DNA of 46,558 nucleotides from a virus. The notes below the pieces were generated by a model. It saw only the letters and a program-made list of their open reading frames with translations. It ran no database searches and had not been told where the DNA came from. The DNA lies in the IMG/VR virus record IMGVR_UViG_3300044620_001849, positions 1-46,558 of that record; one strand, written 5' to 3'. The translations under genes were made by a program, and so were the position numbers. Positions 7,041 through 25,315 of this stretch are shown in pieces; position 1 is the stretch's first letter; each line of letters begins with the position of its first letter.

Positions 7041-7056
7041 AGTTACTGATTGAATA

Positions 7057-7065: not shown

Positions 7066-7121
7066 ACCCTAAGCCACAAAGTGGCCGCCCAAAATTTTTA
7101 GAAAAGATAGAGGAACTGTGT

Positions 7122-7232
7122 ATGGAACACGTTTTTGGTTTAGTGATAAGTAGTGTATTTGTCGTCCTTGTTCTCTTCAGCGTCTGGTATATGCTAAGTC
7201 TACCCGACCGCGGAGAGCCGACTGATGATTAA
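7122..7232 (+). CDS. 36-residue single-pass membrane protein
   Basis: It begins MEHVFGLVISSVFVVLVLF: one hydrophobic helix (about residues 4-24) followed by an acidic tail. GAGGAA precedes the ATG. A longer in-frame reading from 7050 starts on TTG inside the promoter and is rejected. The stop overlaps the start of the ATPase gene by 8 bases, so the two are coupled. Confidence 0.6.
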   Translation: MEHVFGLVISSVFVVLVLFSVWYMLSLPDRGEPTDD

Positions 7233-8619: not shown

Positions 8620-8630
8620 GGAGAATTGCT

Positions 8631-8948: not shown

Positions 8949-8992
8949 CGTAGAGTAAATCTCACGCTCCGCAAATAATAGGAGACTGTAAA

Positions 8993-9622: not shown

Positions 9623-9638
9623 GGATGGAGTGGCGTCA

Positions 9639-9935
9639 ATGAAGGTGACTTACGATCAGCAGAACCTCACAACGCGTCGATTGCTGGCAAGCAAAAGACA
9701 TCTCTGGATGCGGGTAGGGAAATACAAGATTGTGCTACATGGGTATGGAGCATTGGAACTGTACTGGTGCGTAGAAATTATCAACAAAGACAACGATAAG
9801 GATGTCTATCACATCGTTGGCGAACACTCAGATAATTGGCCCACTGGGTGGTCCAAGTTTGTCAGTGTTAGCGATGCGATAAACAATGCTTTATCGGCTA
9901 TTGTCGAGATAGAGGGAAAGAAGGAGAAGGTATGA
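9639..9935 (+). CDS. Unknown protein, 98 aa
   Basis: Begins MKVTYDQQNLTTRRLLASKR; GGAG lies about 9 bases before the ATG at 9639. The longer open frame to the left merely overlaps the upstream gene and is not used. The stop overlaps the next start by 4 bases. Not recognised. Confidence 0.65.
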   Translation: MKVTYDQQNLTTRRLLASKRHLWMRVGKYKIVLHGYGALELYWCVEIINKDNDKDVYHIVGEHSDNWPTGWSKFVSVSDAINNALSAIVEIEGKKEKV

Positions 9936-10291
9936 GAACGAACGCACGAACAGAATTCCTAACGCACGTTGGCGACCGCATCGTCGTCGCCGCCCGCATA
10001 GCGCGAACTTCCTACTTCCAAGACGATTCCGAGCTTGATTCCGAGCTTGATACGGGTGTCTATCTCAAGTTTGGCCTCTACCTCCCCGGTGTCGATGGGC
10101 AAACCGAGTACATCGAGTTTCTCGAGAAGCTGAATTTCCTGTACAACAGTGGGTATGGCCTGCAGTACCTGGACGGTGAGATCTGGTACGACGATGGCAG
10201 TTGGTCGGACCGCCACGAGTACGACGGCGCTGAGTGGTGGGTGCACCGCGAACGGCCACGCATTCCTGACGAATGTATGAAGGAGCTGTGA
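9932..10291 (+). CDS. Unknown acidic protein, 119 aa
   Basis: AAGGAGAAGGT precedes the ATG. A short internal duplication DSELDSELD (about residues 33-41) reflects a repeat of TTCCGAGCTTGA in the DNA. The C-terminus is tryptophan-rich (GEIWYDDGSWSDRHEYDGAEWW). Its stop overlaps the next ATG. No known domain. Confidence 0.65.
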   Translation: MRTNARTEFLTHVGDRIVVAARIARTSYFQDDSELDSELDTGVYLKFGLYLPGVDGQTEYIEFLEKLNFLYNSGYGLQYLDGEIWYDDGSWSDRHEYDGAEWWVHRERPRIPDECMKEL

Positions 10292-10383
10292 TGAATAAGG
10301 TCACTATGGCCCTCTTATGTGCTGTTCTCCTGTCGCTGGCGTTGCGTTTGCTTTATTATGTATTTGACTGGACGTGGTATTAA
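10291..10383 (+). CDS. 30-residue membrane peptide 1
   Basis: Reads MNKVTMALLCAVLLSLALRL and ends VFDWTWY: one hydrophobic helix with an aromatic C-terminal cap. GGAG lies 7 bases before the ATG, which overlaps the previous stop. Same length and same W-x-W-aromatic ending as the next peptide. Confidence 0.55.
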   Translation: MNKVTMALLCAVLLSLALRLLYYVFDWTWY

Positions 10384-10387
10384 TGAT

Positions 10388-10480
10388 ATGCATAATCTCA
10401 TTATTGTCGTGCTCTATGGTGTCTTACTGGCGTTTGTAGGACTGATGTGTTACTTCGCACTCGGATGGTCCTGGTTTTAG
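10388..10480 (+). CDS. 30-residue membrane peptide 2
   Basis: Reads MHNLIIVVLYGVLLAFVGLM and ends ALGWSWF. The single hydrophobic helix and C-terminal aromatic cap mirror the preceding 30-residue peptide. It starts 4 bases after that stop. No strong Shine-Dalgarno, so translation probably depends on coupling. Confidence 0.5.
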   Translation: MHNLIIVVLYGVLLAFVGLMCYFALGWSWF

Positions 10481-10492
10481 AAAGGTGACGGA

Positions 10493-11428
10493 ATGACCTA
10501 CACACTGCATACCGGCGACTGTCGCGACGTGATGGCGACGCTCCCGGCTGAATCCGTCGACGCCATCGTGTGCGACCCTCCGTACGGTCTTTCGTTCATG
10601 GGCAAAGGTTGGGACCATGGCGTCCCCGGTGTCGACTTTTGGGTCGAGGCGTTGCGCGTTTTGAAACCGGGCGGGCACCTCATCGCCTTTGGTGGTACTC
10701 GGACGTATCATCGATTGGCGGTGGCTATCGAGGATGCAGGCTTCGAGGTGCGCGACTGTCTGATGTGGTTGTACGGCAGCGGGTTCCCAAAGTCGCACAA
10801 CTTGCACGGGGAATGGCACGGCTGGGGCACTGCGCTGAAGCCTGCGTACGAGCCGGCGATATTGGCGCGCAAGCCACTGCGGAGCACGGTGGCGGACAAC
10901 GTGGCGCAATGGGGAGTCGGTGGGCTCAACATCGATGCGACAAAGGTTGGCGGCGTTGGCGGCCGCTGGCCAGCCAACGTCATCCTCGACGAGGAGGCAG
11001 CGGCGGCGCTGGATGCGCAGAGCGGGGTGACAAGAAGTAGTGCGGGAGGCAAAAGCGGGAGCAATGCAAACCCAATGAGCTGGACTGAGGTGAACACAGA
11101 CAGACCAAGAAACGGCCACTCGGACTCCGGCGGCGCGTCTCGATTTTTTTACACGGCTAAGGCGTCGCGGTCAGAGCGCGAAGCGGGACTCCACGCCTCA
11201 AATGGCGAACGCGCCAACAATCACCCAACCGTAAAACCCATCGCTTTGATGCGCTACATAATCCGACTCGTCGCACCGCGTGGTGCCGTCGTCCTCGACC
11301 CGTTCATGGGCTCCGGGTCGACGGGGTGCGCGGCGATGGTCGAGGGTATGCAATTCATCGGCATAGACATTATTCCGGAATACGTCGAAATTGCACAGGG
11401 ACGCTTGTCCCGGTGGTCGTCAATGTAA
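10493..11428 (+). CDS. DNA methyltransferase (N6-adenine/N4-cytosine type)
   Basis: 311 aa. Catalytic motif IV is DPPYGLSF (residues 28-31 for DPPY) near the N-terminus, followed by FWVEALRVLKPGGHLIAFGG. The S-adenosylmethionine-binding motif is VVLDPFMGSGSTGCAA (about 264-279) near the C-terminus, with HPTVKPIALMRYII before it. This DPPY-first order is the beta class. It methylates exocyclic amino groups at a target site that cannot be read from sequence. No partner endonuclease is nearby, so protection of phage DNA from restriction or a regulatory role is likely. AGGTGACGG precedes the ATG. Confidence 0.92.
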   Translation: MTYTLHTGDCRDVMATLPAESVDAIVCDPPYGLSFMGKGWDHGVPGVDFWVEALRVLKPGGHLIAFGGTRTYHRLAVAIEDAGFEVRDCLMWLYGSGFPKSHNLHGEWHGWGTALKPAYEPAILARKPLRSTVADNVAQWGVGGLNIDATKVGGVGGRWPANVILDEEAAAALDAQSGVTRSSAGGKSGSNANPMSWTEVNTDRPRNGHSDSGGASRFFYTAKASRSEREAGLHASNGERANNHPTVKPIALMRYIIRLVAPRGAVVLDPFMGSGSTGCAAMVEGMQFIGIDIIPEYVEIAQGRLSRWSSM

Positions 11429-11440
11429 GCACGCAAGGGC

Positions 11441-11469
11441 TTGCATTTTGTTTTGACTTGTAGTACTAT
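11441..11469 (+). promoter_or_regulatory. Sigma-70-like promoter of candidate small RNA
   Basis: TTGCAT (11441-11446), 17-base spacer, TACTAT (11464-11469). No start codon with a usable frame follows before the terminator. Confidence 0.5.
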
Positions 11470-11475
11470 ACGCAT

Positions 11476-11549
11476 GTGCTGATATACCAGACGGCACGAC
11501 CTGGGAACCCCCTCACGTTACGGCAGAACACGTGAGGGGGATTTTTTTT
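11476..11549 (+). ncRNA. Candidate small RNA of about 74 nt
   Basis: Between a promoter-like pair and a strong terminator lies a stretch without an open frame that could encode a protein. It contains a small potential stem (GTGCTG region, 11475-11500) and then the terminator stem. Length and layout fit a phage small RNA or antisense regulator. No known RNA family is recognised. Confidence 0.4.
11508..11549 (+). terminator. Rho-independent terminator
   Basis: CCCCCTCACGT (11508-11518) pairs perfectly with ACGTGAGGGGG (11530-11540); eight T follow at 11542-11549. Confidence 0.9.
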
Positions 11550-11553
11550 CCTC

Positions 11554-11582
11554 TTGACAGCGACTCGCGAATCGTGTATGCT
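11554..11582 (+). promoter_or_regulatory. Sigma-70-like promoter
   Basis: TTGACA (11554-11559), 17-base spacer, TATGCT (11577-11582), directly after the terminator and 38 bases before the next start codon. Confidence 0.7.
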
Positions 11583-11620
11583 TCTGTTGGTTGTTAATTA
11601 CAAACGTATGGAGATGAGCA

Positions 11621-11974
11621 ATGACTGCACCACAAGCACTGACCGACGCCCTTCGAGCCGCCTTTAGCGACTATCGTGAGCTTCAGAGCGAGATCGACGC
11701 CCTTTCCGCCTCGCAAGAGGAAGCACGCAATCAGATCAAGACGCTGGTCACCGAGTTCGGCGGCAAAGCGGCAATCACTGGCCTGGCCTCGGCTTCGGTG
11801 ATTCCGGCCTCAACGACACACAGCTACGACACGAAGGCCATTGACCAGCTGATCATTCAGCTGTTTAGCGACGGCACGTCTGAGGGTGTTAAGCTGGCTC
11901 AGCACCTAACCGACGCACGCAAGTCGAGCACACGCAAGGAATCGCTACGGATCACGCTCGATAAGACTGTATAG
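11621..11974 (+). CDS. Unknown helical protein, 117 aa
   Basis: MTAPQALTDALRAAFSDYRE opens an N-terminal coiled coil (about residues 5-48), then an alanine-rich middle and a C-terminal helix with basic residues (DARKSSTRKESLRITLDK). GGAG precedes the ATG. It is a monocistronic gene with its own promoter and terminator. Not recognised. Confidence 0.7.
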   Translation: MTAPQALTDALRAAFSDYRELQSEIDALSASQEEARNQIKTLVTEFGGKAAITGLASASVIPASTTHSYDTKAIDQLIIQLFSDGTSEGVKLAQHLTDARKSSTRKESLRITLDKTV

Positions 11975-12003
11975 CTCCTAGAGTATAGCTCCTGGAACTT
12001 AAT

Positions 12004-12052
12004 GCTCCCCTGTTTGCTGGCAAGTGCTGGCAAGCAGGGGAGCTTTATTATT
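12004..12052 (+). terminator. Terminator with duplicated loop
   Basis: Outer stem GCTCCCCTG (12004-12012) and CAGGGGAGC (12035-12043), then TTTATTATTATG. The loop carries GCTGGCAAG twice. Confidence 0.75.
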
Positions 12053-12296
12053 ATGTTAAGTTGTGAAACCACTTGATCCTTTTTGAAATTTGTCTACTTG
12101 ACGGGATACAAGGGCGGGTGTGGATGACAAGGTTTGTGTCCACCCGGCCGCCTCGCCTCACATCGCTGGAGCGATGCTCGTCTCGGGTTGGCGGCTTCAC
12201 CAGCGACATTGGTACTGTGGTTGATATTGGTACGCGCCACAGTGCGTCCGTCAAGTCTTTACCAGGTTCAAGTCTACCGGCGGGAGCTTCCCAGCC
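12053..12296 (+). other. Non-coding leader, 244 bases
   Basis: No plausible gene. It contains palindromic pieces (CATCGCTGGAGCGATG at 12160-12175) and, at 12201-12233, CCAGCGACATTGGTACTGTGG followed by ATTGGTACGC. That last element recurs at 16209-16243. Confidence 0.5.
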
Positions 12297-12323
12297 TTTT
12301 CTCTTTTTGTTATGTTTACTGTG
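12297..12323 (+). promoter_or_regulatory. Phage promoter-like box P1
   Basis: First of 13 copies of a contiguous box: a pyrimidine run (TTTTCTCTTTT), then TGTTAT, seven bases (here GTTTACT), then GTG. Across all copies the gap is always seven bases, starts with a purine and has T at its fourth position. There is no -35 box at the normal distance. It lies 32 bases before the start codon at 12355. Confidence 0.7.
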
Positions 12324-12354
12324 TCAACGTAGCTGTCTTAGAAAGGACACTGAC

Positions 12355-12606
12355 ATGGAATGCATCTTCCCCCAGGACTGCAACTGCAGCGATTGCCGCT
12401 TCGAGAGGCTCGAGGCCATCTTCGAAGCCACATCGACGTGGCACACCGGCGAGCGCTCGTCGATCGAGATGTACGTGCCGCTGCCCACCGACACCTGGAT
12501 CACACCAGGCACGATGTTCGGAGACGTTCGCCTCGGATGGACGAGCGTTGGCACGTACGATCCTGGCAGCCCATCGGACCAGGACGAGGACATCCTCCCG
12601 TTCTAG
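12355..12606 (+). CDS. Small Cys-rich protein, 83 aa
   Basis: Begins MECIFPQDCNCSDCRFERLE: four cysteines in the first 14 residues, then an acidic body ending TYDPGSPSDQDEDILPF. The ending resembles that of the protein at 17455 (DTWDPSAP ... DGTVLPF), so the two are probably distant paralogues. The leader can form a short hairpin that leaves GAAAGG, the ribosome site, in the loop. Followed by hairpin H1. No known domain. Confidence 0.7.
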   Translation: MECIFPQDCNCSDCRFERLEAIFEATSTWHTGERSSIEMYVPLPTDTWITPGTMFGDVRLGWTSVGTYDPGSPSDQDEDILPF

Positions 12607-12618
12607 TTCTCCCCAGCA

Positions 12619-12648
12619 TCGGTGTCCATGCTCTGGCATGGACACCGA
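12619..12648 (+). repeat. Hairpin H1 of the GGTGTCCATGC family
   Basis: TCGGTGTCCATGC / GCATGGACACCGA, 13-bp perfect stem with loop TCTG, 12 bases after a stop codon. Of the six family copies this alone does not have a UNCG loop. Confidence 0.8.
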
Positions 12649-12673
12649 ACCACGCATTCACACAGCCACACAA

Positions 12674-12702
12674 TTTTTTTCTTTTTGTTATAGGTATAGT
12701 GG
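12674..12702 (+). promoter_or_regulatory. Phage promoter-like box P2
   Basis: TGTTAT, then AGGTATA, then GTGG, after TTTTTTTCTTTT. It precedes the gene at 12735. Confidence 0.7.
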
Positions 12703-12734
12703 TATTGTAGTTGTCTTTAGAAAGGACACACACC

Positions 12735-12908
12735 ATGTTGAACTTGATCTACGCAATCAAGCACCTGATCTTCGGACCATGCAGCGACGTCGAGTGCGAG
12801 CGGGCAAAATGCCGCTGGGCACGGCTGGCCCTGAACGGCGTTCGCACATGCCCACAGTGCGAAACGTGCATCCAGGCAGACGAGCAAGTCTGCCCAGTGT
12901 GTAACTAG
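12735..12908 (+). CDS. Small double zinc-motif protein, 57 aa
   Basis: The N-terminal hydrophobic stretch MLNLIYAIKHLIFG is followed by motif CSDVECERAKC (residues 16-26), the C-x4-C-x4-C signature shared with three other proteins here. A zinc ribbon completes it: CPQC (39-42) and CPVC (53-56). Ribosome site GAAAGG is 9 bases upstream of the ATG at 12735. Hairpin H2 separates it from the next gene, which lacks its own box, so the two share a transcript. Probably a metal-binding protein that contacts nucleic acid or protein; function unknown. Confidence 0.7.
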   Translation: MLNLIYAIKHLIFGPCSDVECERAKCRWARLALNGVRTCPQCETCIQADEQVCPVCN

Positions 12909-12920
12909 CGCACACACACA

Positions 12921-12950
12921 TCGGTGTCCATGCTCCGGCATGGACACCGA
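12921..12950 (+). repeat. Hairpin H2 of the GGTGTCCATGC family
   Basis: Same 13-bp stem as H1 with loop TCCG closed by C-G. It is followed by three tandem TCACACAG units (12951-12975). It lies between two cotranscribed genes, so it does not act simply as a terminator. Confidence 0.8.
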
Positions 12951-12987
12951 GTCACACAGTCACACAGTCACACAGAAAGGACACACC

Positions 12988-13248
12988 GTGAAACTCATCA
13001 TCAAGAACAACGCCTTCGCCAAAGTCGGCCACCCCTGCAAAGACGTCGAGTGCGAAAACGCTCGTTGCAGGCCGCTGATCCGGTTCATAACCGAGCCGTC
13101 AGCCGAGTGGCACCACGGCAACCCGTTCCGCTACGAGCGCGCGGCGGTGGAGTGGACGTGTAAGTACTGCGAGACTATCAACGGGTCGTTGCGCAGGCAT
13201 TGCACCGAATGCAATCAACACAGGCCATTGAATAATTTCTGGGATTAG
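12988..13248 (+). CDS. RanBP2-type zinc finger protein, 86 aa
   Basis: GTG start at 12988 after GAAAGGAC. It carries the shared motif CKDVECENARC (residues 17-27), then a basic middle. The C-terminal finger fits the RanBP2 pattern W-x-C-x2-C-x3-N-x6-C-x2-C exactly: W56, C58, C61, N65, C72, C75. RanBP2 fingers bind single-stranded RNA or ubiquitin in eukaryotes and are uncommon in phages. Binding RNA, perhaps the many hairpins around it, is an attractive but untested idea. It is the second gene of a two-gene transcript behind hairpin H2. Confidence 0.75.
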   Translation: MKLIIKNNAFAKVGHPCKDVECENARCRPLIRFITEPSAEWHHGNPFRYERAAVEWTCKYCETINGSLRRHCTECNQHRPLNNFWD

Positions 13249-13262
13249 CAGTTCTCAACACA

Positions 13263-13292
13263 TCGGTGTCCATGCTCCGGCATGGACACCGA
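13263..13292 (+). repeat. Hairpin H3 of the GGTGTCCATGC family
   Basis: Same stem and TCCG loop as H2, 14 bases after the stop at 13248 and directly before box P3. Confidence 0.8.
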
Positions 13293-13300
13293 GTCACACA

Positions 13301-13330
13301 TTTTCTCTCTTTTTGTTATGTTTAATATGC
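13301..13330 (+). promoter_or_regulatory. Phage promoter-like box P3
   Basis: TGTTAT, then GTTTAAT, then ATG in place of the usual GTG. It precedes the gene at 13364. Confidence 0.65.
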
Positions 13331-13363
13331 TAAATTAGCTGTCTTACGAAAGGACAAAACACC

Positions 13364-13624
13364 ATGGCAACAGTCGCAAAGATCCGTCAAGTCTGGTCCG
13401 TCAACATCGAGACGTCTCGCATGTTCGAGAACGTCACCGCAATCCTCTACGACGTACGGTTCGCCAACGGCCAGACCCACACCTTCGCACACATGTTGGT
13501 CGGTCGTGTGGACGAGCAGAGCGTGGCTGCAGCCGAGCAGTACGTTCGCTTCGAGGCAACCAGGAACTGGGCCACACACGAGTGGTTCCACGCATGCGAT
13601 GTTGTACGCGACGTTTGGATCTAG
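13364..13624 (+). CDS. Unknown small protein, 86 aa
   Basis: MATVAKIRQVWSVNIETSRM; alternating beta-strand pattern then a helix (DEQSVAAAEQYVRFEATRNW) and a short C-terminal strand. Only one cysteine, so not a member of the Cys-rich group. Single gene between box P3 and a strong terminator. Not recognised. Confidence 0.7.
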   Translation: MATVAKIRQVWSVNIETSRMFENVTAILYDVRFANGQTHTFAHMLVGRVDEQSVAAAEQYVRFEATRNWATHEWFHACDVVRDVWI

Positions 13625-13633
13625 AGTCACACA

Positions 13634-13670
13634 AGCCCTGCATCTCTTCGGAGGTGTAGGGCTTTTTTTA
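13634..13670 (+). terminator. Terminator with UUCG loop
   Basis: AAGCCCTGCATCTC, loop TTCG, GAGGTGTAGGGCTT, then T7. It pairs with the copy at 14967 as a repeat: a T-A pair here is C-G there. Both, and the terminator at 18204, continue into TTTATTGRGTTTCRCACA. Confidence 0.9.
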
Positions 13671-14006
13671 TTGGGTTTCACACATCACACAGCGACCTGC
13701 TGCGCAGGTCGCATTCAGCGTCCCTCTGTCTAGCTGGTCAGCGATCCCTGCAGTCACGTGCATCCCCTCTGTCTCGGTGTCAGGCATCTCTAAACAATGG
13801 TGCATGGTGATGTGCATGATTTTCAGACGTCTTTGGGCGGCTCCTTCGGACCGGGCTGCCATGCTTCGCACCGAGCCGTGCGCGTCTCGGCCCTTCGGGT
13901 AGGCATCCCTGCCGCGATGTGCTGCTACGCAGCACGCCTTCGGCCTTCATGCGATAGCCTTGTGCGTCACACAGGGGTGCCCCGCTGCGGCGGAGGTTTC
14001 CCAGCC
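13671..14006 (+). other. Non-coding palindromic region, 336 bases
   Basis: No gene. Contains GCGACCTGC-TGC-GCAGGTCGC (13692-13712), GTGCTGC-TAC-GCAGCAC (about 13919-13935) and several TTCG-looped stems between 13845 and 13960. Ends in GGTTTCCCAGCC just before box P4, as before boxes P1 and P6 in similar form. Confidence 0.5.
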
Positions 14007-14033
14007 TTTTCTCTTTTTGTTATGTTTGCTGTG
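14007..14033 (+). promoter_or_regulatory. Phage promoter-like box P4
   Basis: TGTTAT, then GTTTGCT, then GTG. It precedes the gene at 14065. Confidence 0.7.
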
Positions 14034-14064
14034 TCATCTTAGTTGTTATGAAAGGACAACAGAC

Positions 14065-14232
14065 ATGGAATGCATCAACAACCGGTTCCCTTGCGACGAC
14101 GTCGAGTGCGAAAACCTCGACTGCTTGAACGCACGCATTCACATCTGCACGGATGTCGAATGCGAAGAGCCACAATGTGTGGCCTACCGCGAGGAGCTCA
14201 AGCGCCTCGAAGGTGACCCCTGGTTGCGCTAG
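14065..14232 (+). CDS. Small protein with two C-x4-C-x4-C motifs, 55 aa
   Basis: Begins MECINNRFPC like the protein at 12355. It carries the shared motif twice: CDDVECENLDC (10-20) and CTDVECEEPQC (28-38), followed by a basic/acidic helix YREELKRLEGDPW. The second motif is nearly identical to the one in the protein at 17455 (CTDRECEEPQC). The tandem motif suggests an internal duplication. The leader forms GTTGT / ACAAC around the GAAAGG ribosome site. No known domain. Confidence 0.7.
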   Translation: MECINNRFPCDDVECENLDCLNARIHICTDVECEEPQCVAYREELKRLEGDPWLR

Positions 14233-14242
14233 GTTCCACGCA

Positions 14243-14272
14243 TCGGTGTACATGCTCCGGCATGTACACCGA
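14243..14272 (+). repeat. Hairpin H4 with compensatory change
   Basis: TCGGTGTACATGC / GCATGTACACCGA, loop TCCG. Relative to H1-H3 a C-G pair became A-T on both arms, keeping the stem. Three TCACACAG units follow (14273-14297), then the next ribosome site without a promoter box. Confidence 0.85.
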
Positions 14273-14309
14273 GTCACACAGTCACACAGTCACACAGAAA
14301 GGCAAAGAC

Positions 14310-14531
14310 ATGCAGTCACGCAAAGAGTGGGTAAAGGCACAGGCAGTCGCTAAGTGGACGTGTATCCCCGGCACCGTAGAGCTCGAAGACGAGTACTATT
14401 ACGAAGGTGAACCGAACACCTTCAAGTACGAGTGTCCCGAGTGCGGATGGAAGTTCCGCCACGATGCGTACTGGGGTGCACTGTACGGCGACACGTGCCC
14501 CAACTGCAAAGTACCGGGGCACGACTTCTAG
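14310..14531 (+). CDS. Zinc-ribbon protein of CPECGWKFR family, 73 aa
   Basis: Basic N-terminal helix (MQSRKEWVKAQAVAKW), an acidic middle, then CPECGWKFR (42-50) and CPNC (63-66), a rubredoxin-like zinc ribbon. The protein at 16661 shares W-T-C-I-x-G near the start, ECPECGWKFR and CPNC in the same order and spacing, so they are paralogues. Second gene of the transcript started at P4. Function unknown; zinc ribbons of this size usually bind nucleic acid or partner proteins. Confidence 0.75.
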   Translation: MQSRKEWVKAQAVAKWTCIPGTVELEDEYYYEGEPNTFKYECPECGWKFRHDAYWGALYGDTCPNCKVPGHDF

Positions 14532-14541
14532 AGACACGCAT

Positions 14542-14569
14542 CGGTGTCCATGCTGCGGCATGGACACCG
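14542..14569 (+). repeat. Hairpin H5 of the GGTGTCCATGC family
   Basis: CGGTGTCCATGC / GCATGGACACCG with loop TGCG; an outer T-G wobble can extend it. 10 bases after the stop at 14531. Confidence 0.8.
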
Positions 14570-14595
14570 GGCCACACAATCCACACAGCCACACA

Positions 14596-14623
14596 TTTTC
14601 TCTTTTTGTTATGTTTACTGTGG
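14596..14623 (+). promoter_or_regulatory. Phage promoter-like box P5
   Basis: TGTTAT, then GTTTACT, then GTGG. It precedes the gene at 14656. Confidence 0.7.
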
Positions 14624-14655
14624 TTTCTTTGATTGCTATAGAAAGGCAACAAACC

Positions 14656-14958
14656 ATGAATGCACGCAACCTCGAAATCTCCCGCAACAACTGCAAGTTC
14701 GAGTTGGTTCAAGCCGACCTGAACTTGGTCCGGGCAAAGGCCGTCCTGGCTGCGGCCAACAAAGAGGGCTTGACCTACATGGTCGAGGCTGCCACAATCG
14801 ACCTCCACTGCGCCCAGGAACGCGTGGAAGTCGCCCTGGCCGCAAAGGTTCGGGCAAACGCCGAGCTTCGGTTTGCCCGGGAATGTGACCGAGCTGCGGC
14901 CGTCGCTAGATTCAACGCTATCCCTGCCCGCCTAGAACGTTGGATAAACAACCTCTAG
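14656..14958 (+). CDS. Helical protein of LRFA family, 100 aa
   Basis: Almost entirely alpha-helical, alanine and arginine rich: KFELVQADLNLVRAKAVLAA, a kink, then EAATIDLHCAQERVEVALAA and AELRFARECDRAAAVARF. It aligns along its length with the protein at 17036 (KYKLVHATKILQAAE, EQATIEW, LRFA), so they are paralogues. No catalytic motif. Its leader can pair TTGC with GCAA around the ribosome site. Confidence 0.7.
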   Translation: MNARNLEISRNNCKFELVQADLNLVRAKAVLAAANKEGLTYMVEAATIDLHCAQERVEVALAAKVRANAELRFARECDRAAAVARFNAIPARLERWINNL

Positions 14959-14966
14959 GTCTCCCC

Positions 14967-15003
14967 AGCCCCGCATCTCTTCGGAGGTGTGGGGCTTTTT
15001 TTA
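14967..15003 (+). terminator. Terminator with UUCG loop, second copy
   Basis: AGCCCCGCATCTC (14967-14979), loop TTCG closed by C-G, GAGGTGTGGGGCT (14984-14996), then T-rich tail. Confidence 0.9.
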
Positions 15004-15019
15004 TTGGGTTTCGCACATT

Positions 15020-15045
15020 CCCCGATCGACTGCGGTCGCTCGGGG
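15020..15045 (+). repeat. R-family hairpin R1
   Basis: CCCCGA-T-CGAC-TGCG-GTCG-C-TCGGGG. Both inner and outer arms pair and the loop is TGCG closed by C-G. R6 (18365-18390) is identical. Confidence 0.7.
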
Positions 15046-15215
15046 AAGCCACGCACCAAGGCGCCGTGGGCAGGAAACTAGATAGACATTGGTGCCCTAC
15101 GGCGCCTTGGACTGCGGCGGCTCGCACGTTGGGAAAACGCAGTTGGTGCTCGCCGCCCACGCCACACAGTCACACAGTCACACTCGCCTGCGGGCGGGCC
15201 ACACAGTCACGCATT

Positions 15216-15241
15216 CACCGATCCACTGCGGTGTCTCGGTG
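15216..15241 (+). repeat. R-family hairpin R2
   Basis: CACCGA-TC-CAC-TGCG-GTG-TC-TCGGTG. Compared with R1, one outer pair changes C-G to A-T and the inner arm GAC/GTC changes to CAC/GTG, both compensated. Confidence 0.7.
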
Positions 15242-15291
15242 AAGTCACACAGGCCTCACACGCCTGCGGGCGAGTCGCACAGTCACACATT

Positions 15292-15317
15292 CCCCGATCC
15301 ACTGCGGTGTCTCGGGG
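15292..15317 (+). repeat. R-family hairpin R3
   Basis: CCCCGA-TC-CAC-TGCG-GTG-TC-TCGGGG, followed by GGTTTTT, so this copy could also terminate transcription. Confidence 0.7.
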
Positions 15318-15335
15318 GGTTTTTCACACATCGGT

Positions 15336-15580
15336 GTGTTGCCTAGAATGCACGGCAATGTGGCGCCGCTTCGCGTCGTGCTGCGGCACCCTTCGGGCCA
15401 CATTGCTATTCGTGCATTCTTTAACGGCAACATACACCGTGCTCGTGGCGCCGCTCCGCGTCGTGCTTCGCACCCCTGTTTCTGCGGAAACAGGGGCCAC
15501 TCGAGAGAAGGGTTCTCGGCAACCTGGCCGCTGGCGCGGTGCTTCGCATCCCTGCTGCTGCGGCAGCAGGGACCAGGTTG
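15336..15580 (+). repeat. Three nested palindrome modules
   Basis: Module 1: AGAATGCACG plus GCAATGTGGC (15345-15364) pairs with GCCACATTGC and CGTGCATTCT (15397-15420), around an inner GTGC-TGCG-GCAC. Module 2: CCCCTGTTTC-TGCG-GAAACAGGGG (15473-15496). Module 3: CAACCTGG / CCAGGTTG (15520 and 15573) around TCCCTGCTGC-TGCG-GCAGCAGGGA (15549-15572). All three share TGGCGC ... GTGCTTCGCA-like text before a TGCG-looped inner stem, so they are diverged copies of one element. Confidence 0.65.
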
Positions 15581-15671
15581 CTGGAGCAGGCCACACACGG
15601 GAGCACGATGTCCCCGTTTCCAACCCAAAGTCCTAGAAAATTCAAAATTACCATATATATAGCAAAGGCCT

Positions 15672-15835
15672 TTTCTGGGCGCTCTTTAAAATTGATTCAG
15701 CAGGTATACTAGATACACCGCACACACACATACATAACCCTGATCTTTGCAACTTACCTTTTCTGGGCGCTCTTTAAATACTATTTGCATACACACACAC
15801 CTCCTACCTTAATCTCTTTCTGGGCGCTCTTTAAA
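15672..15835 (+). repeat. Direct repeat cluster A1-A3
   Basis: TTTCTGGGCGCTCTTTAAA occurs at 15672-15690, 15760-15778 and 15817-15835, exact each time. A1 and A3 are followed within ten bases by TTCAGC. CCGTTTCCAACCC, which accompanies copies A4-A6, stands just upstream at about 15614. Confidence 0.9.
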
Positions 15836-16128
15836 TACTGTTCAGCTTACCATGTGCACTATACCCTTACTTACATACGCTGTACGTAGACTTACTACGG
15901 GTACTGGTATACGTATGCCTACTAGCCTATGCACAGGTGTAGGTGTGTCTATGCGTGTGTGTGTACTGGTGTGTGTGTGCAGGGGCAGCAGTGCAGAGGG
16001 AAGAAGGACAGTGTACGCGGTAGCAGCAGCGGCAAGGGGGAAGAGAGCAGGAGCAGTGCAGGGGCGGTGGTGAGAGAGCGTGCGCGCAAAGGCGGTGGTG
16101 GTGAGCGATCACGGTGCAGGAGCAGGGT

Positions 16129-16205
16129 CGGCGCTCCTCGCTTCGCGAGCTGTGCTGACGCACAGTGTGTGCTCGCTTCGCTGCGCGCACAGCGCCTAAC
16201 GAGCC
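16129..16205 (+). repeat. 77-base structured repeat C1
   Basis: Starts CGGCGCTCCTCGCTTCGCGA, contains CTGTGC-TGAC-GCACAG and GTGTGTGC ... GCGCGCAC, and ends GCGCCTAACGAGCC. C2 differs at only a few positions; C3 keeps the stem with compensated changes. Confidence 0.75.
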
Positions 16206-16208
16206 TCT

Positions 16209-16243
16209 CCAGCGACACTGGTACTATGGTGTGTATTGGTACG
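16209..16243 (+). repeat. GGTAC element, second copy
   Basis: CCAGCGACACTGGTACTATGG followed by ATTGGTACGC repeats the element at 12201-12233 with two substitutions in its first part. It lies between C1 and C2. Two GGTAC half sites about 20 bases apart could be a protein-binding site. Confidence 0.55.
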
Positions 16244-16258
16244 CCCCCGATCCGAGTC

Positions 16259-16335
16259 CGGCGCTTCTCGCTTCGCGAGCTGTGCTGACGCACAGTGTGT
16301 GCTCGCTTCGCTGTGCACACAGCGCCTACCGAGCC
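16259..16335 (+). repeat. 77-base structured repeat C2
   Basis: Direct repeat of C1 at a 130-base offset. The C1 pair of arms GCGCGCAC is GTGCACAC here. Confidence 0.75.
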
Positions 16336-16383
16336 CGGCCACTGAAGCCCGGTGGAGTTGATGTAATCCAGGAGTTTCCCGAC

Positions 16384-16410
16384 TTTTCTCTTCTTGTTAT
16401 GTTTAAGGTG
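16384..16410 (+). promoter_or_regulatory. Phage promoter-like box P6
   Basis: TGTTAT, then GTTTAAG, then GTG. It precedes the gene at 16435. Confidence 0.7.
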
Positions 16411-16434
16411 TTCTTTTAGTTAAAGGGTGCGATA

Positions 16435-16605
16435 ATGACCAACTACAATCAAAAACCCATCTCGGCCTGGAAGATGGCCGACCTCATCGCCCACGAGTAC
16501 GACTCGTGGGTATCTGGAGCCAAGAAGGCTCCAGAAGCTCCCAAGCGGGAGCTTACTCCGGCACAATGCCGGAAAGAGGTAAAGCGGCTGCTCAACAAGA
16601 AGTAG
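16435..16605 (+). CDS. Small basic protein, 56 aa
   Basis: MTNYNQKPISAWKMADLIAH followed by EYDSWVSGAKKAPEAPKREL and a C-terminal basic helix ending EVKRLLNKK. AAAGGG lies about 9 bases before the ATG. Lysine-rich and probably two helices joined by a proline/alanine linker. Its composition suggests nucleic-acid or protein binding. Not recognised. Confidence 0.65.
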   Translation: MTNYNQKPISAWKMADLIAHEYDSWVSGAKKAPEAPKRELTPAQCRKEVKRLLNKK

Positions 16606-16608
16606 CCG

Positions 16609-16637
16609 TTTTTCTCTCTCTGTTATGTATAATGTGG
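16609..16637 (+). promoter_or_regulatory. Phage promoter-like box P7
   Basis: TGTTAT, then GTATAAT, then GTGG. It precedes the gene at 16661, only 24 bases after the box. Confidence 0.7.
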
Positions 16638-16660
16638 TTTCTTACGAAAGGAAAAACACC

Positions 16661-16921
16661 ATGACAAACCCAACTTGGACTTGCATCACCGGAGAGGTCG
16701 GCGACCTCACGGCAGACGACCAATGGTACTGGGACCCCGGCGAGGACGACCGCGAGGACACGTCCAAGCACGAATGCCCCGAGTGCGGATGGAAGTTCCG
16801 CGGCGACGTGCTGTGGGGGTGCACGTTCACCGACAACGGCGACATGTGCCCAAACTGCCTCAGCGTCGTCACCGACGACGACGCTGACGACTGCGCGGGT
16901 TGCTTCAGTCCTCGAGACTAG
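16661..16921 (+). CDS. Zinc-ribbon protein of CPECGWKFR family, 86 aa
   Basis: Paralogue of the protein at 14310: WTCITG (6-11), acidic middle, CPECGWKFR (39-47), CPNC (63-66), plus an extra C-terminal CAGC (about 79-82) set in aspartates. The ATG at 16661 follows GAAAGG; the leader pairs TTTC with GAAA. Probably a zinc-binding adaptor; function unknown. Confidence 0.75.
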   Translation: MTNPTWTCITGEVGDLTADDQWYWDPGEDDREDTSKHECPECGWKFRGDVLWGCTFTDNGDMCPNCLSVVTDDDADDCAGCFSPRD

Positions 16922-16931
16922 GAGCCACGCA

Positions 16932-16961
16932 CCAGTGTACGTGCTTCGGCATGTACACTGG
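16932..16961 (+). repeat. Hairpin H6, the most diverged copy
   Basis: CCAGTGTACGTGC / GCATGTACACTGG with loop TTCG. Relative to H4 the outer arm changes from TCGGT/ACCGA to CCAGT/ACTGG, keeping all pairs, and one pair is a G-T wobble. Confidence 0.8.
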
Positions 16962-16978
16962 GCCAAACAATCACAGCC

Positions 16979-17006
16979 TTTTTTCTTTTTGTTATAAATA
17001 TAGTGG
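16979..17006 (+). promoter_or_regulatory. Phage promoter-like box P8
   Basis: TGTTAT, then AAATATA, then GTGG. It precedes the gene at 17036. Confidence 0.7.
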
Positions 17007-17035
17007 ATTTGTTTCTTATTTTAAGGAGACTAGAC

Positions 17036-17356
17036 ATGTTGGTCAACACAAACACACAGCTGGTTCGTAAGGCCTACGCCATCGCTTTCCGCGAAGAGCG
17101 TATCGCCAAGTACAAGCTCGTGCACGCAACCAAAATTCTCCAGGCAGCCGAAGACACCGACAACACGATGTTGATTGCGTTGGCACGGTACGACTTCGAA
17201 CAGGCCACCATCGAGTGGAACTCGGCCATGGACCGGGCATTCGCACTCGCCCAAGACCTGCGGTTTGCGACAATCGCAAGCCGCTCAGAAATCTGGTGCC
17301 GAATCAACGTATGGGGAGAACGGGCTGCCCTGTGGATTGACACCCTGGGCATGTAG
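17036..17356 (+). CDS. Helical protein of LRFA family, 106 aa
   Basis: Paralogue of the protein at 14656. Helices cover most of the chain (ERIAKYKLVHATKILQAAE; LARYDFEQATIEWNSAMDRA; LRFATIASRSEIWCRINVWG). AAGGAG precedes the ATG at 17036; an earlier in-frame ATG at 17003 lies inside the promoter box. Function unknown. Confidence 0.7.
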   Translation: MLVNTNTQLVRKAYAIAFREERIAKYKLVHATKILQAAEDTDNTMLIALARYDFEQATIEWNSAMDRAFALAQDLRFATIASRSEIWCRINVWGERAALWIDTLGM

Positions 17357-17364
17357 TTCTCTAT

Positions 17365-17404
17365 CCCTCGTATCTACTGCAATAGTAGATACGGGGGATT
17401 TTTT
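17365..17404 (+). terminator. Terminator merged with promoter box P9
   Basis: CCCTCGTATCTACT (17365-17378) pairs with AGTAGATACGGGGG (17384-17397). The T run that follows is also the pyrimidine run of P9. Confidence 0.85.
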
Positions 17405-17426
17405 CTTTTTGTTATGGATTTAGTGG
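17399..17426 (+). promoter_or_regulatory. Phage promoter-like box P9
   Basis: TGTTAT, then GGATTTA, then GTGG. It precedes the gene at 17455. Confidence 0.7.
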
Positions 17427-17454
17427 ATTAGCTTTTTACTTATAGGAGACTATC

Positions 17455-17664
17455 ATGTATTTCCCAGAAGACTACCACTTGTGCACAGACAGGGAGTGTG
17501 AAGAGCCACAGTGCGTGCAGTACTGTGCCGACATCGACAGCCAGAGCGACTACCTAGAGTCCATCTTCGTCGACACGACCGGCTGGGTCGGCGTCGACAC
17601 CTGGGACCCGTCGGCACCACGCGAATTTCAGACCCTAGAGGACGGTACCGTACTACCGTTCTAG
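17455..17664 (+). CDS. Small Cys-rich acidic protein, 69 aa
   Basis: Motif CTDRECEEPQC (10-20) plus a further cysteine in VQYCADID. The acidic C-terminal part DTWDPSAPREFQTLEDGTVL ends in PF, like the protein at 12355. It thus links the motif of the proteins at 12735, 12988 and 14065 to the tail of the 12355 protein. Overall strongly acidic. AGGAG precedes the ATG. No known domain. Confidence 0.7.
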   Translation: MYFPEDYHLCTDRECEEPQCVQYCADIDSQSDYLESIFVDTTGWVGVDTWDPSAPREFQTLEDGTVLPF

Positions 17665-17676
17665 TCCTCTCCACAA

Positions 17677-17709
17677 CCCTGCATCGCTCTGGCGATGCAG
17701 GGAGGTTTT
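17677..17709 (+). terminator. Hairpin terminator with TCTG loop
   Basis: CCCTGCATCGC-TCTG-GCGATGCAGGG, then AGGTTTTC, which leads straight into box P10. Confidence 0.75.
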
Positions 17710-17733
17710 CTCTTCTTGTTATAAGTATAGTGG
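17706..17733 (+). promoter_or_regulatory. Phage promoter-like box P10
   Basis: TGTTAT, then AAGTATA, then GTGG. It precedes the single-strand binding protein gene at 17762. Confidence 0.7.
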
Positions 17734-17761
17734 ATTTGAATTTTATTTTAAGGAGTCTATC

Positions 17762-18199
17762 ATGAAAGACGTGAACCGCATCACCATCACCGGAAACCTC
17801 GGCGCAGAAGTCGACGCTCGGTACACTGCAGCCGGTCGCATTGTCAGCAACTTCTCAGTTGCTGTCAATCAGTCCTACAAGAACACCGACGGCGAAACCA
17901 TCAAGTCCGTGGAATGGTTCCGCGTGGTGGCCTGGGACAAGCTCGGCGAGATTTGCAACGAGTACCTTGTAACAGGTACTCGAGTGTACATCGAGGGTCG
18001 ATTGCAGCAGCGTCGCTACACTGCCAAAGATGGCAGCGAGAAACTCGCTGTGGAAATCGTAGCCGCTGAGATGACAATTCTCAGCGCCCCGCCCGAACAA
18101 CCACAACCTGCGCCTGCGCCTACCGAAAAACCAACCCTCAAAGGTACAATGGTACCTAAAAAGCGGTCAATAGTCTCGGACGAGCAAGCCGACGTCTAA
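17762..18199 (+). CDS. ssb: Single-stranded DNA-binding protein (bacterial SSB type)
   Basis: 145 aa. OB-fold residues 1-108: MKDVNRITITGNLGAEVDAR, IVSNFSVAVNQSYKN, EWFRVVAWDKLGEICNEYL, TRVYIEGRLQQRRY and AVEIVAAEMTIL, the standard SSB order. A proline-rich linker (PPEQPQPAPAPTEKP) leads to a C-terminus ending SDEQADV, which lacks the DDDIPF-type tip that recruits host repair proteins. A second, unrelated single-strand binding protein is encoded at 41266. It is expressed from box P10 and ended by its own terminator. Confidence 0.92.
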   Translation: MKDVNRITITGNLGAEVDARYTAAGRIVSNFSVAVNQSYKNTDGETIKSVEWFRVVAWDKLGEICNEYLVTGTRVYIEGRLQQRRYTAKDGSEKLAVEIVAAEMTILSAPPEQPQPAPAPTEKPTLKGTMVPKKRSIVSDEQADV

Positions 18200-18203
18200 A
18201 TCA

Positions 18204-18241
18204 AACCCCTACACAGCACTTCGCTGTGTAGGGGTTTTTTT
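18204..18241 (+). terminator. Terminator after ssb
   Basis: AACCCCTACACAGC (18204-18217) pairs with GCTGTGTAGGGGTT (18223-18236), then T7 and the shared TATTGAGTTTCGCACA tail. Confidence 0.9.
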
Positions 18242-18290
18242 ATTGAGTTTCGCACATCCCGCTCGCTTCGCTCGCGGGTTAATTCGGTGT

Positions 18291-18390
18291 TTGGCGATCC
18301 ACTTCGTTCCTCGCCAAAACCGTGTATTCCCCGATCCACTTCGTGTCTCGGGGTATCACACATTCCCCGATCGACTGCGGTCGCTCGGGG
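18291..18390 (+). repeat. R-family hairpins R4, R5 and R6
   Basis: R4: TTGGCGA / TCGCCAA (18291 and 18311). R5: CCCCGA-TC-CAC-TTC-GTG-TC-TCGGGG (18329-18353). R6: identical to R1 (18365-18390). R4 shows a compensated outer arm. Confidence 0.65.
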
Positions 18391-18555
18391 AAGTCAGAGC
18401 GGTGCCGCTGGGTAACAAATGCGCTCCGACTTCGTCGGTGCAGGCGCATTTGTTTTGCCAGCGGACCTGTTTAGCTCGCGCCCTGGCCGCGCAGACTCGC
18501 TAGCGCTCGCTGCTGCCAGGGTACATACCTCGCTTCGCGAGGCGCTCGCGTTGGC

Positions 18556-18632
18556 CGGCGCTTCTCGCTACGCTCGCCGTGCTAACGCACGGTGTGTGCT
18601 CGCTACGCTCCGCGCACAGCGCCTACAGCGGC
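18556..18632 (+). repeat. 77-base structured repeat C3
   Basis: Diverged copy of C1/C2. The stem CTGTGC / GCACAG is CCGTGC / GCACGG here, and CTTCGCGA is CTACGCTC, so pairing is kept where sequence changed. Confidence 0.7.
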
Positions 18633-18737
18633 CACGATGAAATCAGGAGCAGCTCGAAACCCAGGCAGCCCCAGCCCCAAACCGAGGCGGCTCGCTGCGG
18701 CTCGCTGAGCCAGCCAGCCCAAGAACTGCGCTTGCCC

Positions 18738-18875
18738 CCGTTTCCAACCCTTTCTGGGCGCTCTTTAGAAATTAGTCTCTCTACATTCTACCGTTTCCAA
18801 CCCTTTCTGGGCGCTCTTTAAAAATTAGTCTCTCTGTATTACTCCGTTTCCAACCCTTTCTGGGCGCTCTTTAAA
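18738..18875 (+). repeat. Tandem direct repeat cluster A4-A6
   Basis: Three units with an exact 53-base period, each CCGTTTCCAACCC followed by TTTCTGGGCGCTCTTTARA (at 18751, 18804 and 18857) and, in the first two, ATTAGTCTCTCT. Box P11 begins 11 bases after the last copy. Confidence 0.9.
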
Positions 18876-18885
18876 AATTTATTGC

Positions 18886-18913
18886 TTTTTTCTTTTTGTT
18901 ATATATAATGTGG
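18886..18913 (+). promoter_or_regulatory. Phage promoter-like box P11
   Basis: TGTTAT, then ATATAAT, then GTGG. It precedes the gene at 18941 and lies directly after repeats A4-A6. Confidence 0.7.
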
Positions 18914-18940
18914 ATTATGTATTTTATAAGGGGGTGTACT

Positions 18941-19255
18941 ATGGAAAGTGTCTTCACGATCGAATTGTTCCACACGGGTCTGTCTGCACTGCAGGCCAAC
19001 GTCATCCGCGCACGGTACAGCGAACGAGACCTGCAAGCCCAAAGTCGCACGACCACGCCCATAACCGTGACGCACCAAAACGTCGTTTTTGGAGTCCGTG
19101 CCGAAAACCCAGAAGACGCAAGAATTCTGGGCTCCCGGATGTGGAACAAACTCGCTCTAGACGCCCGTCGCTGTGGCCGTGGAGATTGGCCATTCAAGGG
19201 AGTCTCTATCAAATCACATGCAGAGGTTTTACTCCAGGAAGAGTGGTTCGAGTAA
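18941..19255 (+). CDS. Unknown protein, 104 aa
   Basis: MESVFTIELFHTGLSALQAN; a beta strand, a helix, then RTTTPITVTHQNVVFGVRAE and a C-terminal helix. AAGGGGG precedes the ATG at 18941, excluding a longer reading that begins inside the promoter box. No domain recognised. Confidence 0.7.
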   Translation: MESVFTIELFHTGLSALQANVIRARYSERDLQAQSRTTTPITVTHQNVVFGVRAENPEDARILGSRMWNKLALDARRCGRGDWPFKGVSIKSHAEVLLQEEWFE

Positions 19256-19269
19256 ATACACGCCGGGGC

Positions 19270-19297
19270 TTTTTTCTTTCTGTTATAGTTGTTGTGG
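19270..19297 (+). promoter_or_regulatory. Phage promoter-like box P12
   Basis: TGTTAT, then AGTTGTT, then GTGG. It starts a longer operon of five to six genes from 19324. Confidence 0.7.
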
Positions 19298-19323
19298 TTT
19301 AAGTTTCACATTTAGGAGAGGCT

Positions 19324-19560
19324 ATGAAAGCAACACTTCGCGACGTTTTGTCCAGGGTCAATGTCGGTACCATGTACGGTACACTGGAGGTCGAGCTCGG
19401 CTCTGACTCGGCCCCAGAACACGAAATCGGAACTGCTGCTGTCCAAGAAGCAATACGCTTTTTGAAGACATCCACTTCCGGACACGAAGACGTAACTGAA
19501 TTCGAGATTCAGTACGAAAACGGAACCACCTACGTATTCTATCTTGACGCTGACTACTAA
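19324..19560 (+). CDS. Unknown protein, 78 aa
   Basis: MKATLRDVLSRVNVGTMYGT, acidic, alpha/beta; AGGAGAGG precedes the ATG. First gene of the P12 operon. Not recognised. Confidence 0.7.
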   Translation: MKATLRDVLSRVNVGTMYGTLEVELGSDSAPEHEIGTAAVQEAIRFLKTSTSGHEDVTEFEIQYENGTTYVFYLDADY

Positions 19561-19570
19561 GGAGCACACA

Positions 19571-19906
19571 ATGCGTAAGCACAGATTTGCAGTACCCTAC
19601 CGCATCGATGCCAAGGGTACAATCACAACCGGGACCGTGAACGTAAGCACAACAGACAACACGCGCTGGGATGTAGTATTCGCCGCAGCTCAGGCAATTA
19701 TGCTTGAGTACGACTTTGTACTGCCTACGCAAATCAACAGCTGGGTACTGAACTACATGCGTGACGGTAGTTACGTATACTGTGTCACACCGAATCTGAC
19801 ATGCACTCTCGATATCCAAGTGCATAGTGTTCGGCCATTAAAAAGCACAGACATCCAAATCTGCCTCGGCAAATACATCATCACACCAGAAGGGACTTAC
19901 CTATGA
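19571..19906 (+). CDS. Unknown protein, 111 aa
   Basis: MRKHRFAVPYRIDAKGTITT; AAGGAG overlaps the upstream stop, deciding the ATG at 19571. Beta-rich with TTDNTRWDVVFAAAQAIMLE as the only long helix. Overlaps the next gene by 4 bases. Confidence 0.7.
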   Translation: MRKHRFAVPYRIDAKGTITTGTVNVSTTDNTRWDVVFAAAQAIMLEYDFVLPTQINSWVLNYMRDGSYVYCVTPNLTCTLDIQVHSVRPLKSTDIQICLGKYIITPEGTYL

Positions 19907-20358
19907 GCAAGTACGACATCTACGTTATCGCCGACAGTGTAAACTGCTCGGCGATACAAAACACAAAACATGAATGGTACATCTTCGAAGACTTGGGTAT
20001 GGACCTACCAGTATTCACCGGGACTGCATATGCAACACTGATGTACTTGCGTGGCCGATTGGCACAAAAGCAGTATCAGTACCCAGTGCCAAAAGAACAT
20101 CTGAAGACCATACTCAGACCACTGCTAGATTCTATCGAAGACCACCAGATTGGTAGCTACGTCGCAACCGAAATTCTCGGACTTGGATTTGACGTAGCTA
20201 TCGATGACTGGGACTCTTTTTCCGGATCCGTGCACGTATTAGTAACGAAGGGAGAAGAACTCGGCCTAACGAAAGACCAACAGGTACTTATCGACCAACT
20301 CGACAACTGGCACACATTGTTTATTCACGACAAAGAGGATGCACCAAATGCGGACTAA
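19903..20358 (+). CDS. Unknown protein, 151 aa
   Basis: MSKYDIYVIADSVNCSAIQN; alternating strands and helices, acidic C-terminus (HDKEDAPNAD). Coupled to both neighbours by overlaps. No catalytic motif seen. Confidence 0.7.
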   Translation: MSKYDIYVIADSVNCSAIQNTKHEWYIFEDLGMDLPVFTGTAYATLMYLRGRLAQKQYQYPVPKEHLKTILRPLLDSIEDHQIGSYVATEILGLGFDVAIDDWDSFSGSVHVLVTKGEELGLTKDQQVLIDQLDNWHTLFIHDKEDAPNAD

Positions 20359-20647
20359 CAAAGCAAACGTAATCAAAGGTATCGCACGCCGTCTCAAACT
20401 CAAAGTAGAATGGGACACATACGCAAAGCTGTGGGACATCCGATTCTCTGACAAAGACGGATGGGTACAGGCCACCACAGGAGAAGCATACATCGCAATG
20501 GTTACGCTCGAGTACGACTACGGTGCTCGTGGATACCGGTGTGAAGTCTGCCACCAAGTATATGCAGATTCACAACAATACATGACAGGCTCAGGTATGC
20601 GCGTACTCTGTATCGGATGCAAACACAACTACGTAGAAAGAATCTAA
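20348..20647 (+). CDS. Zinc-finger-like protein, 99 aa
   Basis: Basic N-terminus (MRTNKANVIKGIARRLKLKV) and a C-terminal CEVC / CIGC pair (about residues 65-68 and 88-91) that could hold one zinc ion. AAGAGG at 20333-20338 fits the ATG at 20348 better than the ATG at 20339. Possible DNA-binding protein; unassigned. Confidence 0.65.
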   Translation: MRTNKANVIKGIARRLKLKVEWDTYAKLWDIRFSDKDGWVQATTGEAYIAMVTLEYDYGARGYRCEVCHQVYADSQQYMTGSGMRVLCIGCKHNYVERI

Positions 20648-20648
20648 C

Positions 20649-21080
20649 ATGTTCTCAAAAGCAGTAATGTTCCCAGCCATCGCCGTCTCCCTGTCAGTGA
20701 CAGTGGAGGCGGCAGGGTATCTCTACGACGTCTTCACTGGAACAGAACCATTCTCACTCAGATTGCTAGAAGACAACGACTTCAACATGGTGCCTGCTAT
20801 TCACGTCTGGGTATACAAATGGGCAAGCAGTCACAACAAAAATACAAACGAAAGCTTAGCCTTTCTGCGTAAAGAAGTATTCCGCATTCAAATGCGTAAG
20901 ACTGCTGTGTCAAACGACTACGTAATGACAAATCAAGCCAATGAGTATTTTGCCTGCTTCGTAAACTTCGACCCAGACAATCTAAATGAATTTGGATTGT
21001 TTACAACCGTAACTCCAGAAGAAATAGAAGACTTTACGTATTCTGACTTAGAAGAGTTAGGGCCTTTCGCTACAGTATAG
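20649..21080 (+). CDS. Unknown protein, 143 aa
   Basis: Hydrophobic N-terminus (MFSKAVMFPAIAVSLSVTVE, about 1-20) that may be a membrane or signal segment, followed by a helical, acidic body. Only AGAAAG serves as ribosome site. A later ATG at residue 7 is possible. Last gene of the P12 operon before a terminator. Confidence 0.6.
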   Translation: MFSKAVMFPAIAVSLSVTVEAAGYLYDVFTGTEPFSLRLLEDNDFNMVPAIHVWVYKWASSHNKNTNESLAFLRKEVFRIQMRKTAVSNDYVMTNQANEYFACFVNFDPDNLNEFGLFTTVTPEEIEDFTYSDLEELGPFATV

Positions 21081-21087
21081 TTACTAA

Positions 21088-21126
21088 CCCGCAGGTATTC
21101 TCCAAAAATACCTGCGGGCCTTTTTT
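21088..21126 (+). terminator. Terminator merged with promoter box P13
   Basis: CCCGCAGGTATT (21088-21099) pairs with AATACCTGCGGG (21107-21118), then CC and six T that open P13. Confidence 0.9.
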
Positions 21127-21149
21127 CTTCTTGTTATAGTTTAAGTGGG
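21121..21149 (+). promoter_or_regulatory. Phage promoter-like box P13
   Basis: TGTTAT, then AGTTTAA, then GTGG. It starts the ArdC operon (21173 onward). Confidence 0.7.
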
Positions 21150-25312: not shown

Positions 25313-25315
25313 TAT

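Follow-up and report, generated by a model that had tools for sequence, protein, structure and literature searches.

A composite early-region spacer with an array of nested, often UNCG-capped stem-loops in a probable Chloroflexota phage

The window analysed here is a virus record of 46.6 kb (IMGVR_UViG_3300044620_001849, positions 1-46,558). It has a close sister phage, G001 (IMGVR_UViG_3300032291_002856, 68 kb), of which 1-29.4 kb aligns with window 17369-46558, mostly at 87-96% identity, and the last 2 kb aligns with window 1-1964. Because the window matches both ends of the G001 record, the two combined suggest a circular or permuted genome of approximately 83 kb. Window 1965-17368 is absent from G001, and therefore the spacer under study, 15004-16383, has no counterpart there. 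The DNA polymerases of relatives in IMG/VR are 59-77% identical; the fullest syntenic relatives are G006 (82.7 kb) and G014 (79.0 kb), with a gene order that wraps around the contig ends. No DNA similarity between the window and named phages was found, and we know of no cultured member of this phage group. A Chloroflexota host is likely, judged from one gene, since the R3H/AAA-type protein (7225-8619) has counterparts in lake Roseiflexaceae and other Chloroflexota that are 60-70% identical to it. After this comparison, it replaced a cyanobacterial host, our first idea from the DNA polymerase matches. The proteins of window 7225-9622 are 95-99% identical to those of G006, whereas most neighbour genes reach only about 35-77%, and we thus read this segment as a recent exchange between related phages. 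In G001, positions 36738-52790 of the minus strand hold a single open frame of 5350 aa (L034).

The region 15004-16383 is best read as a composite spacer, with an intrinsic terminator on one side and the next early promoter on the other. The features of this region, and two further spacers that carry related repeats, are the following (window positions; z values compare folds with shuffles).

14967-14999, + strand: intrinsic terminator of the preceding gene (14656-14958), from repeat comparison and terminator scan
15018-15047, + strand: R hairpin 1, TTCCCCGA-T-CGAC[TGCG]GTCG-C-TCGGGGAA, z -4.6
15053-15115, + strand: long hairpin CCAAGGCGCCGTGGGCA / TGCCCTACGGCGCCTTGG, an inverted repeat with a 20-nt loop, z -4.7
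15182-15275, + strand: nested palindrome around R hairpin 2 (15214-15243), with CACACAGT linkers
15290-15322, + strand: R hairpin 3 (15290-15317) followed directly by GTTTTT, a probable intrinsic terminator inside the region, called by eye
15332-15439, + strand: nested module M1, multi-branched, with UGCG and UUCG as inner loops, z -7.1, 0/200 shuffles as stable
15442-15506, + strand: nested module M2, arm order as in M3, z -1.5 when folded alone
15519-15581, + strand: nested module M3, z -3.7
15672-15690, + strand: 19-bp direct repeat (iteron-like) TTTCTGGGCGCTCTTTAAA, copy 1; six copies in the window, 0.01 expected
15760-15778, + strand: the same repeat, copy 2
15817-15835, + strand: the same repeat, copy 3
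16129-16205, no strand assigned: 77-mer inverted-repeat unit, copy 1
16259-16335, no strand assigned: 77-mer inverted-repeat unit, copy 2
16384-16410, + strand: early promoter-like element, one of 13 copies of TTTTYTCTTYTTGTTAT, marking the end of the spacer
18240-18885, + strand: paralogous spacer with R hairpins, nested stems, 77-mer copy 3 (18556-18632) and three iteron-like repeats (18751, 18804, 18857)
24705-25328, + strand: third spacer, at a convergent junction; the variant repeat TTTCTTGGGCGCTTCTTT occurs here four times

Downstream of the first terminator lies the tail TTTATTGRGTTTCRCACAT, which is also found behind two other terminators, at 13633 and 18203. The early promoter-like element TTTTYTCTTYTTGTTATNNNTANNGTGG occurs 13 times in window 12297-21137, mostly once per gene, and none of the 13 copies falls inside the spacer. 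The terminator-like hairpin at 15290-15322 is absent from the list of the terminator scan. As the earlier note had proposed, there is no credible gene in 15004-16383: the open reading frames tested score like wrong frames (codon scores -0.09 to -0.22; median of real genes about +0.11), and a Pfam/PHROGs profile search with them gave no match. For the flanking genes at 14656 and 16435, no homologues were found in IMG/VR. The DNA of the spacer had no match in the relatives G002-G021 or in 12 candidate host genomes, mostly Chloroflexota, so that direct homologues outside this phage were not found. The gene at 16435-16605 encodes 56 aa with the codon usage of a real gene; its transcript (16413-16615) folds into six hairpins in a row, with an intrinsic terminator at the end, and is among the strongest local folds of the window (z -10.5). 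The idea that this unit is a pure non-coding RNA was abandoned, as it scores like real genes in codon usage. Another spacer, 13680-13996, also follows a terminator and carries palindromes, no iteron-like repeats and a weak fold (z -2.1).

The part from 15004 to 15620 is a genuine, unusual array of nested stem-loops. Its fold lies below all 200 of 200 dinucleotide shuffles (z -7.8); an earlier test of 15004-15640 gave z -15.7 with only 20 shuffles. The structure had been described for the whole 1.4 kb, and this holds for 15004-15620 but not for 15640-16100 and 16100-16400, which fold like shuffles (z about 0). The three nested palindrome modules and the R-family hairpins are present as described, the latter with more copies near 18327 and 18363. 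Behind the long hairpin, a second stem, GGCGGC/GCCGCC, reaches to about 15158. Folded separately, M1 and M3 beat 200/200 shuffles and M2 does not. The modules are related to each other: M1 and M2 have the core GTGGCGCCGCTYCGCGTCGTGC in common, M2 and M3 a 42-nt stretch, and the outer stem of M3, GCAACCTGG/CCAGGTTGC, differs from that of M1, GCAATGTGG/CCACATTGC, by two compensated pairs. Among the R hairpins, two pairs are changed on both sides between copies. Searches with the M-core pattern in IMG/VR and with the R-hairpin pattern in bacterial genomes found none.

UNCG loops are specially stable in RNA. The inner loops, noted earlier as nearly all TGCG or TTCG, are borne out as eight c(UNCG)g hairpins on the plus strand of 15004-15640 and none on the minus strand (shuffle mean 0.16, maximum 3, in 2000 shuffles). 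As CTNCGG is not self-complementary, their restriction to the plus strand points to a sense-strand RNA. They lie between genes, run in gene direction and are presumably transcribed. Together with the compensatory changes between copies, these strand-specific loops support RNA-level structure for 15004-15620. The bias is weak in the paralogous spacer (one hairpin) and, taken over all the G014 spacers together, is not evident (three versus three motifs).

Hairpins closely related to the array, most of them UNCG-capped, also follow six stop codons, and these gene-end hairpins keep 13 of 13 pairs, three of which are changed on both sides. Two of the UNCG hairpins, at 12921 and 14243, are located between a stop codon and the Shine-Dalgarno sequence of the gene that follows, an interval free of early promoter elements; they are therefore probably transcribed, inside mRNAs.

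The next part of the spacer, 15640-16120, is not unusually structured and carries three of the 19-bp direct repeats. Ten copies of the iteron-like motif, in two forms and one orientation, are confined to three non-coding spacers, and in IMG/VR multiple copies of the patterns were found in the sister phage only, while single matches elsewhere look like chance. These ten repeats need an explanation of their own, which makes a replication origin the main rival to an RNA function. According to this rival, the spacer would mainly be a DNA element, an origin or initiator-binding site composed of iteron-like repeats, AT-rich stretches and palindromes, and duplicated in two further spacers. The repeats have the format of iteron-type origins (direct repeats that share one orientation and are about 17-22 bp long) and are adjoined by AT-rich TTTAAA and TATATATA; one of the spacers is at a convergent junction, an unlikely place for promoters; and repeat-rich non-coding regions act as origins elsewhere (PMC7145576). 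However, no initiator gene was identified, three origins would be required, and a DNA function does not account for UNCG loops on one strand. The minimum of the cumulative GC skew also lies elsewhere, at about 60.5 kb of G001, with the maximum at about 12 kb of the window, although gene direction confounds this measure. We regard an origin as the main role of the spacer as rather unlikely, while the DNA repeat cluster beside the hairpin array may be one. At the convergent junction, GACTGGGTAGTCATCATA (window 25184-25201) and a downstream CCCCCAG that could pair with it are conserved in G001 and G006.

Two 77-base structured repeats had been reported near the end of the spacer. They are real repeats, 95% identical, but not demonstrably structured: the two copies and the third (83% identity) fold no better than shuffles when taken alone (z -1.5, -1.8 and -0.4). 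A covariance model of the 77-mer recovered only the four known copies in 0.76 Mb of relatives. A further non-coding repeat, CCAGCGACAYTGGTACTRTGG, is found at window 12194-12238 and 16203-16247, 82% identical over 45 nt.

The paralogous spacer allows a comparison with G001. Its structured part (18240-18640) is 99.3% identical (398/401), against a mean of 87.7% at third codon positions of seven nearby genes; versus the SSB gene alone, the Fisher p is 1.6e-7. A recent recombination tract may also have produced this high identity. Of the three differences, two affect the same arm of one R hairpin and make it match the opposite arm, the pattern of quasi-palindrome correction; the hairpin thereby becomes a perfect palindrome and loses its UNCG loop. 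A DNA-level palindrome correction or template switch explains this change equally well. It is in agreement with a second rival, in which the elements are non-autonomous palindromic repeats, REP/MITE-like or products of template switching, that have little function and build up in the spacers behind terminators. The nested palindromes, their repeated copies in several spacers and their absence from G006 fit such a history. It is nevertheless distinctly unlikely in our judgement: the conservation of the paralogous spacer, which extends to its linkers, exceeds that of third codon positions, the UNCG loops are strand-specific, and the 12 candidate host genomes hold no match to the region. Copy numbers in the window are low (five R hairpins, six gene-end hairpins, three 77-mers), against more than 100 per genome for REP/BIME elements. 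Moreover, a search in which the positive controls were detected found no Y1/RAYT transposase in four phage records, of which at least two (G000, G001) are incomplete.

Comparison with related phages, proposed earlier as a check, gave a divided answer. The distant relative G014 has three copies of a different nested module after T-tailed terminators in its early region, and these analogous modules keep 29 of 29 pairs, six of them changed on both sides; its spacers also carry C-rich linkers. In contrast, G006 has no such hairpin array, and the array is thus not essential to the phage group. None was found in the part of G015 that was examined. As far as these records go, the nested-module architecture recurs in some but not all members of the group, and these have no module sequences in common.

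Of the two forms of RNA offered by the earlier note, a single large RNA like ROOL or GOLLD is not supported, and a set of small RNAs fares better, in that separate hairpin elements beside a DNA repeat cluster, presumably transcribed, fit better than one large molecule. GOLLD and ROOL RNAs often lie beside a tRNA island and are single abundant transcripts that form homo-oligomers. Such an RNA would suit the phage origin, the large non-coding stretch and the strong fold of 15004-15620. Yet Rfam covariance models, including GOLLD and ROOL, gave nothing credible over the region at gathering or relaxed thresholds, the middle (15640-16100) and 16100-16400 fold like shuffles, a terminator-like hairpin lies within the array, the spacer contains no early-type promoter, and the tRNAs (29.2-30.9 kb) are 13-15 kb away on the minus strand. 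One large structured RNA of this kind is very improbable.

Our preferred explanation, held tentatively and at somewhat less than even confidence, is that the array consists of hairpin modules which act as sense-strand RNA, in transcript ends and within spacers, and that a separate cluster of DNA repeats lies next to it. The first 0.6 kb of the spacer would comprise independent RNA stem-loop modules, nested and often UNCG-capped, which would belong to a repeated early-region set whose members stand singly behind stop codons and in clusters where spacers are larger. As no early-type promoter lies inside the spacer, such RNA would have to arise by read-through of the terminator at 14967 or from an unrecognised promoter. 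The modules could serve as stable 3' ends, exonuclease barriers or insulators between many small transcription units, the array doing in bulk the job of the gene-end hairpins, and the iteron-like repeats would have a separate role. A more specific version, a new class of modular phage RNA in which nested, often UNCG-capped multi-branched arrays after early terminators of probable Chloroflexota phages give rise to stable RNAs that have a specific role, be it as a protein sponge or in the insulation or processing of transcripts, we consider unlikely. From a biological point of view, the preferred explanation would show that hairpin-rich early spacers recur, in rebuilt form, within a phage group in which relatives have strongly different early regions, and the array would offer a compact system for asking what cUNCGg hairpin arrays do in phage transcripts.

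Several known systems resemble parts of this spacer. GOLLD and ROOL (PMC12286853) are likewise large non-coding structured stretches in phages; the present region differs in having no covariance-model match, a position away from tRNAs, an internal terminator-like hairpin and only partial structure. With REP/BIME elements (PMC2817692) it has in common clusters of extragenic palindromes, here in few copies, in a phage and with no Y1 transposase found. The PLE replication origin lies in a repeat-rich non-coding region (PMC7145576) and similarly combines several repeat types, some of them iterons, but no RepA-type initiator was identified in our phage, where an origin role is putative. In cluster O mycobacteriophages, a single 17-bp intergenic palindrome motif with invariant arms occurs in 34 copies (PMC4351075); the repetition at many intergenic sites of one phage is alike, whereas the stems described here differ between copies, stay paired and cluster. 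The C(UUCG)G hairpins of T4 and other phages are stable and concentrated in intergenic regions (Tuerk et al. 1988, as cited in PMC8948821). Our hairpins agree with that account in being stable, phage intergenic and closed by a C(UNCG)G loop; compared with the hairpins as outlined there, many are nested into multi-branched modules and duplicated between spacers, and UGCG and UCCG loops are as common as UUCG. On the present evidence, the array is best filed as a variant of the phage intergenic cUNCGg hairpins and not as a GOLLD/ROOL-like RNA.
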